Virus record (IMG/VR): IMGVR_UViG_3300043015_002110
Location: 1 to 25,186 of that record
Reading direction: 5' to 3' (one strand)
Origin: a virus
DNA length: 25,186 nucleotides
Part shown: positions 4,028 through 24,450 of the stretch, piece by piece
Numbering within the stretch: the first letter of the stretch is position 1
Layout of the letters: each line of letters begins with the position of its first letter
Translations under genes and position numbers: made by a program
Notes under the pieces: generated by a model
Databases searched by the model: none
What the model was told of the DNA's origin: nothing
What the model saw: only the letters and a program-made list of their open reading frames with translations

Positions 4028-4291
4028 TTAATTAAATACTGCAAAAATCTGATCTTGTTTAACCGCAGCAAGCATTTGTCCATCATTAGTAAACGGTTGT
4101 GAGGTTTGCCAATTGAAGTAGCAAACATTTCCTGCTTGAACTTCCGTAACATTTGGGCCAATTGCAATAACTCTTCCTGGTTTGTGCCCAGTTGATACTT
4201 CGGTTGTTAGTATAATACCACCTGCAGTTGTCTTGCTATCTTTTTCACTTTCTTCTTGTACTACAATAACGTAATCATTTAAAGCTTTCAT
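4028..4291 (-). CDS. GroES/gp31-like co-chaperonin
   Basis: The 87-residue protein has the layout of a Cpn10 subunit: an N-terminal strand LNDYVIVVQEE, a flexible loop region KTTAGGIILT like the GroEL-binding mobile loop, then GRVIAIGPNV matching the GroES GxVxAVGPG core, and a C-terminal barrel strand. GroES-like proteins cap the GroEL folding chamber. T4 gp31 replaces GroES so that the major capsid protein can fold, and that is the likely role here. It is shorter than T4 gp31 (111 residues) and nearer to bacterial GroES (about 97). Its ATG overlaps the stop of the 35-residue gene upstream (ATGA). Confidence 0.78.
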   Translation of the reverse strand: MKALNDYVIVVQEESEKDSKTTAGGIILTTEVSTGHKPGRVIAIGPNVTEVQAGNVCYFNWQTSQPFTNDGQMLAAVKQDQIFAVFN

Positions 4292-7178: not shown

Positions 7179-8999
7179 CTATGCCATCATATATTGTTTT
7201 CGTAGTTCAGAATTTTTACCAAACATCATTTGAAAAATTGACGCATCATCAACAGTCACGGTGTCGTATTGTGGTTTGTTGATAATGGTATCATACTCTT
7301 CTTCGGTTAATGAACCAAGTCCTTTGATGTAACGATGTTTCCAATTTTTGCCTTCAGCTTTAAATGCTGCGGCTTCCTCGTATGTATAGAACCATTTGAC
7401 TTCACTTCCTTGTGTTGAAATCATAATAGGTGTACGAGTAATTTTAACACGTTTCTCGGTTAATAGCCGTGGCCAAAATTTGTAAAAGAAAGCAATTAGC
7501 AATGGGCTAATGTGTCCGATACCATCGTGGTCAGCATCAGTTAATGTGGCAATGCTTTCATAATTAATGTTGTCCACGCTATTAGGATTATTTATATCCA
7601 AGCCAAGAACAGCAACCAATTCTGACAGTTCTTTGTTTTTCAATACGTCGGCAGGTTTCATATCCCACGTATTCATAATCACACCACGTAACGGGTATGC
7701 ACCAACCTTATTAGCGTCTCGAACCTTCAACAAGAAACCCATTGCCGAATCACCTTCGACGATCTTTAGAGTTGCGGAAGGTTTGTTAGCTGCAATGTGT
7801 TTTGCGACCTTAACTTTGCGCAATCCTTTTTGTGCCAACGTCGCTGCACGTTTATCGGCAGCAATCTTTTTAGCAAGCTGTGCCTCAATAATTGGATCAA
7901 TGATTGAAGGAGTATTAAGAATTTTACGAGCAAAGAATTGAGCATCTTTAATTCCCGCAGCAATTGCGTGATCACGTACGTTACCCATTGGGTTTGTTAA
8001 GCGCTCTTTTGTTTGAGAGTCAAACTTCGGATTTGTGAAGTTTCGAGCAAACATAACAAAGGTAAGACCATTTTTAATAGTCGACTTAACAACCTCAATC
8101 TTGTGCTTGCGCTTAATCATTGTGACCAATTCATCAACCATACCATTAACAACAAAGTCAACGTATGTCCCACCCATTCGAGTATTCACACCATTGATAA
8201 ACGAGTTCGTGCGGAAGCCATCCTCAGATGATGTAATAAAGAATGATAGGTCTTCGGTCTTTTCAACAATAGCATCTATACCAAACAGTTCAGAATATTT
8301 CTTGAGGTTGTTAACCTTAATGCGTTTACGATTGAACGAAAAAGCAATTTCAGGAAATGCCATTTGCAAACTAATAAGACGATCTTCGATTAATGCAACA
8401 GTATCCATTTCTGATAAACTGTCTGCTTCAAACAATTCAAAGTCAGGAATAAACCAAACCTCTGTACCGTTGCCATCTTTAGGAGTATTCTTTTCACGAA
8501 TATCCTCGGCACCGTTCTTACATTCAACTGTAAGCATTGTTCCATTTGACCACGTCTTACCTACAAACTTTGAAGATAAGAAATTGGTTGCAGCTGAACC
8601 GACGCCGTTGGTACCGATCGTAACACGGTTATCGTCAAAGCTTGTACCTGCATTCACACGAGTCCATGCGGCAGTTGCCCGAGCAATTTTACTGTCGGTT
8701 GTCTCGTCATAAACGAGTTCTTGCGGAATACCACGTCCGTTGTCGGATATGGTTACCTTATTATTATCTACAGAAACGTTAATCTTGTTTGCATATTTAA
8801 AATTAGTACGAATTGCTTCGTCAATTGAGTTGTCGAGAATTTCATCGACCATTTTTGATAAAGCAGGAACATACTTTGCAGTTTTCCATTCGCCCATCAC
8901 AAAACGTTCGACCTTCTCCTCGGCACTTGAACCCATATACATGCCAATACGTTCACGAACGTGTTGACGCGCGGTTAAAATTTTAAAGTCTTCACTCAA
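7179..8999 (-). CDS. 39: DNA topoisomerase II large (ATPase) subunit, fused gp39/gp60 type
   Basis: At 606 residues this is the GyrB-like ATPase subunit. The GHKL ATP site shows VDEILDNSIDE (E53, N57), SDNGRGIP (85-92) and GTNGVGSAATNF (129-140). The C-terminal Toprim part shows EGDSA (415-419) and DADHDG (488-493), which bind Mg2+. In T4 this protein is split into gp39 and gp60; here both parts are in one frame. The start is a TTG at 8999 with GGAG eight bases upstream: the nearest ATG upstream hits a stop at once, and the next downstream ATG (codon 20) would cut the conserved N-terminus. It partners gp52. Confidence 0.95.
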   Translation of the reverse strand: MSEDFKILTARQHVRERIGMYMGSSAEEKVERFVMGEWKTAKYVPALSKMVDEILDNSIDEAIRTNFKYANKINVSVDNNKVTISDNGRGIPQELVYDETTDSKIARATAAWTRVNAGTSFDDNRVTIGTNGVGSAATNFLSSKFVGKTWSNGTMLTVECKNGAEDIREKNTPKDGNGTEVWFIPDFELFEADSLSEMDTVALIEDRLISLQMAFPEIAFSFNRKRIKVNNLKKYSELFGIDAIVEKTEDLSFFITSSEDGFRTNSFINGVNTRMGGTYVDFVVNGMVDELVTMIKRKHKIEVVKSTIKNGLTFVMFARNFTNPKFDSQTKERLTNPMGNVRDHAIAAGIKDAQFFARKILNTPSIIDPIIEAQLAKKIAADKRAATLAQKGLRKVKVAKHIAANKPSATLKIVEGDSAMGFLLKVRDANKVGAYPLRGVIMNTWDMKPADVLKNKELSELVAVLGLDINNPNSVDNINYESIATLTDADHDGIGHISPLLIAFFYKFWPRLLTEKRVKITRTPIMISTQGSEVKWFYTYEEAAAFKAEGKNWKHRYIKGLGSLTEEEYDTIINKPQYDTVTVDDASIFQMMFGKNSELRKQYMMA

Positions 9000-21583: not shown

Positions 21584-21613
21584 TTGACATTTGATGTATA
21601 TGTATTATATATA
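21584..21613 (+). promoter_or_regulatory. Promoter of the permuted tmRNA
   Basis: TTGACA (21584-21589) is followed by 18 bases and TATATA (21608-21613). The predicted start, about 21618-21621, coincides with the beginning of the acceptor piece. Confidence 0.75.
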
Positions 21614-21617
21614 TCTA

Positions 21618-21680
21618 GTGGATGTTGATACAAGTCAACGTGCGGACAGGACCCGGGTGCGAATCCCGGCATCTCCACCA
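21618..21680 (+). ncRNA. ssrA: tmRNA acceptor piece (3' half)
   Basis: This part has the T-arm, the acceptor 3' strand and an encoded CCA, but no anticodon arm, so it is not an ordinary tRNA. It begins with a small hairpin GTTGA/TCAAC. ACGTGCGG after it can pair, with one bulge, with CTGACGT of the coding piece to form the long tmRNA helix that replaces the anticodon stem. Confidence 0.85.
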
Positions 21681-21744
21681 AATGTATACTAGTGCCCAGT
21701 TAAGTTTGGGACACATCTGATAAAGTGGCTAGTATACATTTGAT
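21681..21744 (+). other. Intervening segment of the tmRNA precursor
   Basis: The segment begins AATGTATACTAG (21681-21692) and nearly ends CTAGTATACATT (21729-21740), a perfect 12-base inverted repeat. The repeat extends through A21680/T21741 and, with one mismatch, into the acceptor stem. It should hold the two halves together until RNase P and 3' nucleases remove it. Confidence 0.85.
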
Positions 21745-21827
21745 GGGGATGAATAGGATCGACTGACGTATAGAGATGAGAGTAGTTCACCGTGGTGGCT
21801 TACGATAGACAGCCAAAACAAATAAGT

Positions 21828-21872
21828 GCAAACGATAACTTCGCACCATCTGGTTTTGCTCTAGCAGCATAA
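21828..21872 (+). CDS. ssrA: tmRNA proteolysis tag frame
   Basis: The frame GCA AAC GAT AAC... to TAA encodes ANDNFAPSGFALAA. It lies in the coding piece after AAATAAGT, matching the spacing before the resume codon in known tmRNAs. The ANDNFA start matches alphaproteobacterial tags such as that of Caulobacter. The ending ALAA is the classic ClpXP degron. Confidence 0.92.
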   Translation, partial: ANDNFAPSGFALAA

Positions 21873-21946
21873 ACACAGGGAGCTGGCCACTTGCTTAGCA
21901 ACAGGAAACGTGGCACTTTAAACAAAAATAATTAGAAAGGAAAAAG

Positions 21947-22726
21947 ATGTTTAAATTACTTACAGCTACAACCGCGCTCGTTATGGCAGGCGGCGCAGGC
22001 TTTGCAGCAGATCTTACTGGAGAGATTGAAGTTAAGATCGAAGAAAACGCGGCAGGTAACTATGGCGCAACCACATCTTTGGACTTAGGTATGTCTGCTT
22101 TAAACGGAACAGCCTATGGTTGGGTTGATTTAAAAGAAGCCGGCGGCAACATTACTCTTGATGAATATCAAATTGGTACTACCGTTGCAGGCGCAAAGGT
22201 AAGCTTTGGTGACCAAGATAATGTTTGGTTGAGCCGTGAATCGGATGCTGCTCACGCAACTCTTGCGGATCCAGCAATGGCTGAATCTATTCAAGTAGCA
22301 GCTTACGGTGCAACAGTAGGTATTGGTTTTACTGATATTGGCGCAGACGTAACTGATATTGAAAACGTGCAAGGTAAATATGAGCTTGGTCTTGGTACTG
22401 CAGTATCAGTAGCAGCCGCTGGCGATTATAACTTGAACAGTGAAGAATGGGTTTTTGGCGGTCGTGCTGATGCTTGGGTTAACGATGACATTTCTGTAGG
22501 TAGTGCATTTACTTATGGTTCAGCAAATGAGACTGTAGCCTTTGAAAGTGATGTGACTGCATTTGGTATTACCGCATATTTAAACGGTGACCAAGACGAT
22601 ATGGCACAAAACGTAGGCGGATCTTATGCATATGCCTGGAACGGTATGGATCTTGGCGCAGGTGTTAACTATAACCTCGACAAGGAAGAAATGAAACCAA
22701 ACGTTACTGTAGGTTTTGCGTTTTAA
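21947..22726 (+). CDS. Small outer-membrane porin-like beta-barrel protein
   Basis: The 259-residue protein has a signal peptide (MFKLLTATTALVMAGGAGFA, cut after about residue 20 or 21). Alternating amphipathic strands with many Gly, Ala and acidic residues follow, and it ends VTVGFAF, a terminal Phe typical of proteins inserted by the BAM machinery. Its length suits roughly a 12-strand barrel, smaller than trimeric bacterial porins. The family is close to porins of marine alphaproteobacteria. A phage porin could replace a nutrient channel, alter permeability or mask a receptor. A GAAAGG ribosome site precedes ATG 21947. It lies directly after the tmRNA, probably on the same transcript, and ends at a strong terminator. 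Confidence 0.75.
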   Translation: MFKLLTATTALVMAGGAGFAADLTGEIEVKIEENAAGNYGATTSLDLGMSALNGTAYGWVDLKEAGGNITLDEYQIGTTVAGAKVSFGDQDNVWLSRESDAAHATLADPAMAESIQVAAYGATVGIGFTDIGADVTDIENVQGKYELGLGTAVSVAAAGDYNLNSEEWVFGGRADAWVNDDISVGSAFTYGSANETVAFESDVTAFGITAYLNGDQDDMAQNVGGSYAYAWNGMDLGAGVNYNLDKEEMKPNVTVGFAF

Positions 22727-22789: not shown

Positions 22790-22815
22790 GTTTTGATTAA
22801 ACAATGGAGGATGAT

Positions 22816-23367
22816 ATGTCTTTAAAATTGAAAGAACTAACATGGGCACATCACCAAGCAGCTGAACGCCGAGCGTTCGCTAAGATCCTACTAAGCGGCA
22901 AGATTGAACCAAAACTGTATCACAAGTTCCTTTGCTGCCAGTATCTTAATTATCAGATCCTTGAATCATACGCAGAGATTCCATCAAACCTACTACCAAT
23001 CCGTAGAGAATCCCGCATTTGGACCGACATTCGAGAATTGGAAATTGAATACGGTTTAGGACCTGACGGTGATTACCCAAAATCTGTAGAAGAATATACC
23101 AATCATATTAAATCGCTTGCGGAAAAAGGAGACCAACACGGTTTGCTTGCCCATATGTATGTTCGTCATTTTGGTGAATTGCATGGTGGCCAAATGATTA
23201 AAAAGCGAGTTCCTGGCTCAGGAAAAATGTATGAGTTTGAGTTAGAAAAAGAATATCTTATTGAGGAGTTTAGAAAACTGCTCGATGACGATATGGCTGA
23301 AGAAGCAAAGATATGTTTTGATTTTGCGTCTCAGCTATTTGATGAATTGTCTCAAAATATAGATTGA
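22816..23367 (+). CDS. hemO: Biliverdin-producing heme oxygenase
   Basis: ATG 22816 is chosen because ATGGAGG at 22804 is its ribosome site. The 183-residue protein shows the heme oxygenase pattern: H13 in HHQAAE is the expected axial heme ligand (HxxAE), and MYVRHFGELHGGQMIKKRVPG is the distal-helix signature with the GGQ kink. The enzyme opens heme with O2 and reductant, giving biliverdin, CO and iron. A bilin reductase gene two genes downstream would use the biliverdin. A late promoter lies upstream and an early-type promoter overlaps its TGA, so its neighbours can be timed separately. Iron salvage is an alternative role. Confidence 0.93.
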   Translation: MSLKLKELTWAHHQAAERRAFAKILLSGKIEPKLYHKFLCCQYLNYQILESYAEIPSNLLPIRRESRIWTDIRELEIEYGLGPDGDYPKSVEEYTNHIKSLAEKGDQHGLLAHMYVRHFGELHGGQMIKKRVPGSGKMYEFELEKEYLIEEFRKLLDDDMAEEAKICFDFASQLFDELSQNID

Positions 23368-23392
23368 CATTTCACCCATATAGTATTAATAT
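23364..23392 (+). promoter_or_regulatory. Sigma70-type promoter for the bilin reductase operon
   Basis: TTGACA (23364-23369), 17 bases, TAATAT (23387-23392), with a second candidate box TATAAT at 23390-23395. The heme oxygenase TGA (23365-23367) is inside TTGACA. Confidence 0.8.
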
Positions 23393-23433
23393 AATAACTA
23401 TACTACAGCAAAACACCTAAGGAGGGCAAACAC

Positions 23434-23613
23434 GTGAGTACAGAAGAAATTCAAGTGCACGAAGAAGTTGAACTTAAACCATTGGCACGAGGAAACCGAA
23501 TGTTACGATCCGAAGCCGCACGCGCTAAACGGAAAGAACTTAAATTTGTCCGTGAGCAGCGAGTGCTTAATGAATGGGCCCGAGCAAGGCGAGAAAAGAA
23601 GAAGCGAAAATGA
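23434..23613 (+). CDS. Small basic protein with GTG start (59 residues)
   Basis: The frame starts at GTG 23434 behind a very strong AAGGAGGG site and runs to a TGA that overlaps the next ATG (ATGA). The N-terminus is acidic (MSTEEIQVHEEVEL) and the rest is strongly basic and probably one long helix, ending RARREKKKRK. That profile suits binding to nucleic acid or an acidic partner. No family is recognised. It is the first gene of the operon that includes the bilin reductase. Confidence 0.7.
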   Translation: MSTEEIQVHEEVELKPLARGNRMLRSEAARAKRKELKFVREQRVLNEWARARREKKKRK

Positions 23614-23810
23614 CTAGCTATTTGACTGAAGTAAAGGAGGATCCCCTTAACGGGGACCTCTATATTGAATTCCCACCAGCATTTTTAGAGCAATTGGGTT
23701 GGGGAGAGAATGACGAACTGATCTGGGAAAAGACCGAATCTGGTAGTTGGTCAATAAGGAAAAACGAAGATGCATCCATTATGGATCAAGCTAAACAAAC
23801 TAGCGGATAA
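23610..23810 (+). CDS. Small AbrB/MazE-like protein
   Basis: The ATG at 23610 overlaps the previous TGA (ATGA), giving 66 residues; an upstream in-frame ATG has no ribosome site. DLYIEFPPAFLEQLGWGENDELIWEK resembles the swapped-hairpin AbrB/MazE DNA-binding domain (a strand, then P-x-x-x-L-x-x-LGW-x-x-GD, then a strand), with GSWSIRK as the final strand. No toxin partner is nearby, so it may be a regulator or a fold reused for another purpose. Its last 41 bases overlap the bilin reductase gene. Confidence 0.6.
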   Translation: MTSYLTEVKEDPLNGDLYIEFPPAFLEQLGWGENDELIWEKTESGSWSIRKNEDASIMDQAKQTSG

Positions 23811-24450
23811 TATCAGCGAAAAGTTTGACCAACACTTTACAGAATATCATAACGAAAAAATGGACGGTCTTAATTTTAAAGATTGGACAGATCGTTTTTG
23901 GTCTTCTGACGTTGTATATAAAGCACACTTAAAAACAATTGAACCTAAGGATGGTAAAGGTCTATGGCTTATGCACGTAAATGTGTTTCCGCATTCAGGC
24001 ATAGAATTACCAATTCTTGGGTTTGATATTGTTGCAGGTCCAAAAAAGATTACAGGATCCTTCATGGATTTTAGTCCTCTGTATGGATTTTCTCATCCGT
24101 ATAATCAATATATGGAAAAGGCAGTTGAAAATCTTCAGTGGAATAAGCCAAGGGAACTTCCTCCATGGGCAAAAGAGATTTTCTCAAGCGATATGCTCGC
24201 GGTTGGTAATATTAATACAGACGAAGAATTAGATCAGTTCGTTAATATTACAACACATTTGGTTGATTTTTATTTAGACGGTTTAAATGAAAACGCCTTT
24301 AGATCAAACCGTGACACACTCCCACTACTAAATAAGTATTGTGAAAACCAAAAAATGAATCCACATCTTCATAGATCAATTGAAGCAATGGGTATCTCAA
24401 AAGAAGATAAGAACCGATATGTGGATAATGTTTTATTTGAAGAAAGGTAA
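23770..24450 (+). CDS. pcyX: Ferredoxin-dependent bilin reductase (PcyA/PcyX-like)
   Basis: The 226-residue protein has the bilin reductase landmarks: an N-terminal HPLWIKLNKLADNI like the HPLIxxLAxxI of PcyA, then VFPHSGIELPILGFDIVAGP, MDFSPL, RELPPWAKEIFS and a C-terminal NRYVDNVLFE. Several of these match PcyA more closely than PebA, PebB or PebS, as I recall them. The enzymes reduce biliverdin with electrons from ferredoxin. Oceanic phage PcyX makes phycoerythrobilin despite its PcyA-like sequence, so that product is likely but not proved. The start at 23770 keeps the conserved N-terminus and overlaps the upstream gene by 41 bases. No phycobiliprotein gene is present. Confidence 0.85.
   Translation: MHPLWIKLNKLADNISEKFDQHFTEYHNEKMDGLNFKDWTDRFWSSDVVYKAHLKTIEPKDGKGLWLMHVNVFPHSGIELPILGFDIVAGPKKITGSFMDFSPLYGFSHPYNQYMEKAVENLQWNKPRELPPWAKEIFSSDMLAVGNINTDEELDQFVNITTHLVDFYLDGLNENAFRSNRDTLPLLNKYCENQKMNPHLHRSIEAMGISKEDKNRYVDNVLFEER

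Follow-up and report, generated by a model that had tools for sequence, protein, structure and literature searches.

A circularly permuted tmRNA gene in a marine T4-like phage with a conserved RNA module in its spacer

The tmRNA gene and its surroundings

The window, by which we mean the whole stretch of viral DNA analysed here (25,186 nt, IMG/VR record IMGVR_UViG_3300043015_002110), has a T4-like gene content, with topoisomerase II subunits, a UvsW-like helicase, gp47/gp46-like SbcCD, a gp43 polymerase, UvsY and MazG. ARAGORN also places a tRNA-Leu and a tRNA-Arg in it, and a GroES-like (Cpn10) gene lies beside these two at 4028-4291. The features at and around the tmRNA gene, whose two pieces are separated by a spacer (IVS), are as follows:

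21584..21613, + strand: promoter-like element, TTGACA (21584-21589) and TATATA at a spacing of 16 or 18 (21606-21613), recognized by conservation
21618..21680, + strand: acceptor piece, H2 strand included (RF04321, RF01849, ARAGORN)
21653-21669, + strand: T-arm, with the T-stem CCGGG/CCCGG at 21653-21657/21665-21669
21670-21676, + strand: acceptor 3' strand CATCTCC, followed by the discriminator A73 (21677) and CCA (21678-21680)
21681..21744, + strand: IVS, 64 nt, expected to be processed out; its arms AAATGTATACTAG/CTAGTATACATTT prolong the acceptor stem (fold z, terminal helix, covariation)
21690..21731, + strand: three-way-junction RNA module within the IVS (core pattern in viral contigs, helix covariation)
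21745..21925 (3' end approximate), + strand: coding piece with the 5' end GGGGATG, the D-like loop AATAGGATCGAC and the mRNA-like domain (RF04321, RF01849)
21828..21872, + strand: tag frame ANDNFAPSGFALAA with stop TAA (ARAGORN; pS/pN of the tag in relatives)
21947..22726, + strand: 259-aa ORF whose start resembles a signal peptide, directly 3' of the tmRNA; a homologous ORF occupies the same place in L087 and L164
22804..23367, + strand: heme oxygenase gene (Pfam Heme_oxygenase, 5.7e-19)
23770..24450, + strand: ferredoxin-dependent bilin reductase gene (Pfam Fe_bilin_red, 1.1e-15)

Two Rfam covariance models, both without pseudoknots, find the gene: RF04321 (tmRNA_permuted) matches 21618-21872 with 111 bits (E = 3.4e-21; gathering score 47 bits), and RF01849 (alpha_tmRNA) matches the same locus with 88.9 bits (E = 3.6e-23; gathering score 50 bits), its match ending at 21917. 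Together with the independent ARAGORN call of a permuted tmRNA tagged ANDNFAPSGFALAA, these values rule out a chance match. The gene runs from acceptor through IVS to coding piece, and GGGGATG (21745-21751) pairs 7/7 with CATCTCC (21670-21676), G3-U70 included. This pair is the alanine identity pair of tRNA-Ala, and direct reading of the sequence gives the window tmRNA an alanine identity through G3-U70 and A73. The tag frame has an alanine resume codon, a hydrophobic AA end and a stop. Compared with most relatives, the D-like loop lacks one base, as it also does in L061. The original prediction, made from the letters of the window, had placed an acceptor end upstream of the 5' end that pairs with it and a tag frame in the downstream half; all these elements were found where it had put them, and in the covariance-model search that it proposed as a check both models scored above their gathering thresholds.

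The order polymerase - MazG - tmRNA - (signal-peptide ORF) - heme oxygenase - bilin reductase is common to viral contigs found via the polymerase, and about 15 related IMG/VR contigs share the position of the tmRNA. Rfam also detects the tmRNA in copies missed by ARAGORN. The shared order identifies the tmRNA as a phage gene. A bacterial ssrA locus, the alternative that the prediction had itself raised, was looked for, and the flanks proved to be T4-like phage genes standing in the same order in other viral contigs. It is thus very improbable that a viral contig picked up a bacterial ssrA gene or the relic of a prophage attachment site: ssrA is a common prophage integration site and the window sequence is of alphaproteobacterial type, but the gene lies among T4-like replication genes at the same place in many viral contigs, a synteny that largely refutes this explanation, and the copy is intact and under selection. 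A bacterial contig, a chance tag and a pseudogene were considered as readings and rejected.

Of 17 copies, those of the relatives and of the window itself, 15 have just upstream of the gene a TTGACA box followed after 16-18 nt by a TATA-like box. Because a strict sigma-70 scan upstream of the tmRNA reported no promoter, the promoter-like element rests on this conservation. Downstream, the 259-aa ORF, for which a family match was sought and none found, is probably co-transcribed with the tmRNA and perhaps encodes a porin-like protein. The bilin reductase has its best phage match, at 35%, in Pelagibacter phage Mosig, which is also the nearest isolate match of the heme oxygenase and bilin reductase cassette (22804-24450) that adjoins the tmRNA. 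When the tmRNA region was compared with 50,697 phage records by DNA similarity, only matches of 9% coverage were returned.

Two-piece tmRNAs in marine phages have already been described by Buchholz et al. 2022 (PMC9004378), where ARAGORN suggested 53 of them among 18,146 phage genomes, 50 marine or aquatic, with Melnitz and Pelagibacter phage Mosig as example carriers, and where the same ideas on function were proposed. A phage two-piece tmRNA is therefore not new in itself, and the claim that a permuted tmRNA is unusual in a T4-like phage has to be corrected, Mosig being one of the 53. Like Melnitz and Mosig, the window represents a T4-like marine phage with a permuted tmRNA behind what would be an early promoter, and like Mosig it has heme oxygenase and bilin reductase genes. 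We located the Mosig tmRNA at 111558-111772 of MT647606.1; unlike that of the window, it is distant from the bilin genes and has as its IVS a 43-nt hairpin lacking the module. A glutamine riboswitch was reported for the Melnitz tmRNA (PMC9004378), whereas Rfam finds no glnA RNA or riboswitch near the tmRNA in the window. With the alphaproteobacterial two-piece tmRNA (RF01849; RF04321) the window copy shares the permuted order, the tRNA-like domain, G3-U70 and the tag frame; it differs in being phage-encoded, with no SmpB gene found, and in its 64-nt IVS with a conserved internal module, most of the 30 bacterial copies read having an IVS of 10-50 nt.

Selection on the tmRNA and its predicted role

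Among 17 copies, the acceptor stem takes six fully paired (7/7) forms, with the 5' strands GGGGATG, GGGGGCG, GGGGTCG, GGGGCTG, GGGGCAG and GGGGGTG each facing its matching partner; one further copy pairs 6/7. G3-U70 is invariant in the 16 related copies counted. The tag is present in relatives as nine distinct 14-aa sequences with pS 0.45 and pN 0.088 (pN/pS 0.20), as expected of purifying selection. Given the Rfam and ARAGORN matches, the phage flanks, the shared place, the compensatory stems, the invariant G3-U70 and the selection on the tag, we conclude from these sequence comparisons that this is a real two-piece tmRNA of the phage, intact and under selection. The ribosome-rescue RNA is thereby confirmed as a shared and maintained gene in a marine T4-like phage group rather than a stray host fragment. 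Loss of the gene is evidently tolerated, as in L411 the IVS and scraps of the tmRNA are kept in the same genomic neighbourhood and the permuted model matches nothing in the 114-kb record. In that relic (7993-8069) most of both pieces is gone and the IVS module is retained.

A search of 14 viral records, partly incomplete contigs but with ones of 221 kb and 129 kb among them, turned up no gene for SmpB; control genomes were positive in 10 of 14 cases. The simplest account would be that the phage tmRNA relies on the SmpB, AlaRS, RNase P and proteases of the host, and either tagging by the phage tmRNA or supplementing of the host tmRNA is a plausible role for it. An alternative is that the phage tmRNA acts as a decoy or competitor, occupying host SmpB or ribosomes and so weakening host quality control. 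Such a role would fit the SmpB result as well as the inhibition of endogenous tmRNA in E. coli that PMC11915505 reports for a tmRNA-like RNA of phage DS6A lacking a tag, but we consider it unlikely, since the tag frame, needless for a pure decoy, has been kept by selection.

We therefore favour, with a probability of roughly 0.8, a functional circularly permuted tmRNA of alphaproteobacterial type that would serve a marine T4-like phage in ribosome rescue with host factors, its IVS being used as a cargo slot. Host RNA polymerase would make a single precursor, in which the IVS hairpin would hold the two tmRNA halves together; RNase P would cut before G21745 and the 3' end would be trimmed to CCA, so that the IVS would be released. 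Charged by host AlaRS, the phage tmRNA would be carried by host SmpB to ribosomes that had stalled on a broken message in the course of infection, the ribosomes would be freed, and their products would be tagged (A)ANDNFAPSGFALAA for host proteases.

A conserved RNA module in the spacer

The mature RNA made from a permuted tmRNA gene lacks the IVS, which is normally regarded as processing waste. That this supposed waste holds selected content is, in our opinion, weightier than the tmRNA itself; the spacer at 21681-21744 had not been noticed as a conserved structured RNA in the original prediction. The two ends of the IVS pair with each other and so lengthen the acceptor stem. Over 112 permuted tmRNAs of viral contigs this helix averages 9.3 bp, versus 4.6 bp when the arms were cross-paired between sequences. 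Because some bacterial IVS (L429, L474) share this terminal helix, we regard it as a general feature.

The 64-nt IVS of the window adopts a three-way junction fold (z = -5.4 against shuffles) with the loops GTTAAGT and ATCTGATAAAG (the second loop also given as CTGATAAAG). A pattern search of 2.9 million viral contigs with the core TAGTGYCCAGTTAAGTTTGGRACACATCTGATAAAGTGGCTA returned 25 other contigs. In 22 of them the module lies inside a permuted tmRNA, for 20 of which a tag was read, and the tags are as different as ANANDYALAA, ANDNYYGDIALAA and ANENFAPSGLALAA. The remaining contigs are the L411 relic and two (L416 and L417, near-identical to each other) in which the module stands between genes without a tmRNA and has a longer closing helix (L416 533-612, L417 7825-7904). 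Relaxing the P2 stem in the pattern yielded no further copies in the viral contigs, and none of 385 genomes of the class of G014 contained the core pattern. L125 and L126 hold module variants with another loop 2. A free-standing copy is also found in an isolated podovirus, beyond its last annotated gene:

OR420748.1, about 42061-42113 (L468 2992-3044): module copy of Roseobacter phage CRP-143, a weaker match (40 bits)

Copies of the module were counted above about 58 bits, and that of CRP-143 was accepted for its nearly identical core. Below this threshold the IVS model (R1) also gives 20-40 bits on many tmRNAs, on both strands, via the generic extended helix; it matched three alphaproteobacterial genomes at about 34 bits, and the one match checked was the genome's own tmRNA. 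Rfam returned only tmRNA and spurious microRNA matches far below the cut-offs for the IVS, and the module corresponds to no Rfam family.

Across 16 distinct module sequences, 98.9% of cells pair and nine pairs change on both sides, the cells with such double changes numbering 30 versus 7.8 in shuffles. Covariation is seen in all three helices and reaches 0.276, where shuffles give 0.144 and slid versions no more than 0.09; in helix 3, A-U is replaced by G-C in half of the sequences. The conservation of the loops is partly ascertained, because the searches fixed them by exact patterns. Judged by this comparison, the IVS module is conserved and structured. Our best guess is that it is an RNA acting apart from the tmRNA, which might be a protein-binding, processing or stability element.

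The spacer has also often been replaced, as judged by comparison of close relatives. Between L134 and L139 the upstream sequence is identical and the coding piece 99% identical, the T-arm/acceptor region falls to 78% and the IVS to 20% (lengths 164 versus 36); thus the spacer and part of the tRNA-like arms were replaced as a cassette. Near-identical flanks around wholly different IVS, with the T-arm/acceptor changed as well, are seen in L134 (7991-8470), L139 (18106-18455) and L088 (16911-17300).

Protein genes nested in the spacers of relatives

Of 93 distinct permuted tmRNAs found regardless of their IVS, the spacer measures 120 nt or more in 22. The longer and open IVS of sister phages contain small protein genes of three recurring families: A (about 38 aa with one hydrophobic stretch, ..WSICADIFLLAGIIYLVFF), B (FELCLRFFGNEILAIKLA..MEVFGF) and C (..HWISWFKGTPFQWGDFRFNSG.PYK.YRLGPLLIRVFM). 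They occur at the following loci:

Nested genes of families A, B and C, under purifying selection: L034, L036, L058, L218, L222, L269, L328-L407; L207, L215; L087, L094, L106, L164, L201, L237, L272-L327

In families A, B and C the pN/pS ratio is 0.14-0.49, 0.34 and 0.09-0.46, respectively, and third codon positions are the most variable; by these measures the nested genes are selected in the relatives, and we infer that they are translated. Family C was found at 56 viral loci; at 38 of them motifs mark the acceptor and coding ends that flank the ORF, and ARAGORN adds 10 more. For family A, 267 viral loci were found and 80 fetched; both ends were recognized by motif in 71 of the 80 and the coding end in six of the other nine, and the IVS length is nearly fixed at about 159 nt (157-160 nt in all but one fetched locus). 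Some family A tmRNAs (L328-L407) have unusually long tags, e.g. ANDNIAVDNVVYASFGSQKTTVSYENFALAA. Among 84,980 bacterial and archaeal genomes the sole match to family A was in a MAG contig of phage-like look. That contig, PALK01000009.1 (L408/L409) of a Rickettsiales MAG, is apparently a phage contig; its permuted tmRNA has a 75-aa ORF in the IVS, and a family A gene stands free at a distance of about 1 kb.

Many nested ORFs share sequence with the processing helix, as their codons run into the helix arm or up to a conserved TGAT just 5' of the GGGG start, where the ORF ends; family A also has a Shine-Dalgarno-like AAGGAG within the 5' arm. Comparison with PHROGs and Pfam gave the nested ORFs no confident name. 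The 64-nt IVS of the window holds no such ORF, and the evidence for nested genes comes from its relatives.

With a conserved RNA module here and small protein genes in sister phages, we propose that the phages put their spacer to use as a cargo slot. Quite probably, the IVS of these marine phages accommodates either small protein genes, whose codons also serve as processing helix and stop codon, or, as in the window, a mobile, structured, loop-conserved RNA module, and one precursor would yield the tmRNA together with a small protein or a free RNA. If so, translation and RNA processing probably compete. Such a content-bearing spacer would be a way of packing two genes into one, and the module a new phage RNA motif.

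It could be argued that the IVS helix is a processing aid only, that the inner sequence is arbitrary and that module and ORFs are there by chance or hitch-hiking. The terminal helix of the bacterial IVS agrees with this view, which is nonetheless improbable: in 19 of 23 long IVS the ORF outdoes 92% or more of the dinucleotide shuffles (Fisher p about 1e-14, each related sequence being counted on its own), and the codon-position pattern and pN/pS of the nested ORFs, the nearly fixed IVS length in family A and the covariation of the module all speak against it. More seriously, though still doubtfully, the module may be a selfish, REP-like mobile hairpin that settles at sites of low harm without serving the phage in any way. 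Near-identical modules do occur in tmRNAs with unrelated tags and arms, as well as outside tmRNAs, and the IVS is swapped between close relatives; yet helix changes are compensated while the loops stay fixed, each fetched stretch has a single copy, and within tmRNAs the module always keeps the same IVS register.

Returning to the cargo slot, a second genetic element within an IVS has one precedent, a tRNA-Ala gene in the permuted tmRNA of a nominally archaeal sequence, which was called unique (PMC11915505). Unlike that single case, phage protein genes and a separate RNA module recur here in many phages. We found no report of protein genes nested in a tmRNA IVS in the open-licence literature, and the part that appears to be new is what the spacer contains: in this phage a conserved RNA element, in its relatives small protein genes. 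As a separate observation, the IVS of L068 (4475-4586, minus strand) and that of L156 show a T-arm-like hairpin and a multi-arm fold with the look of a degenerate tRNA.
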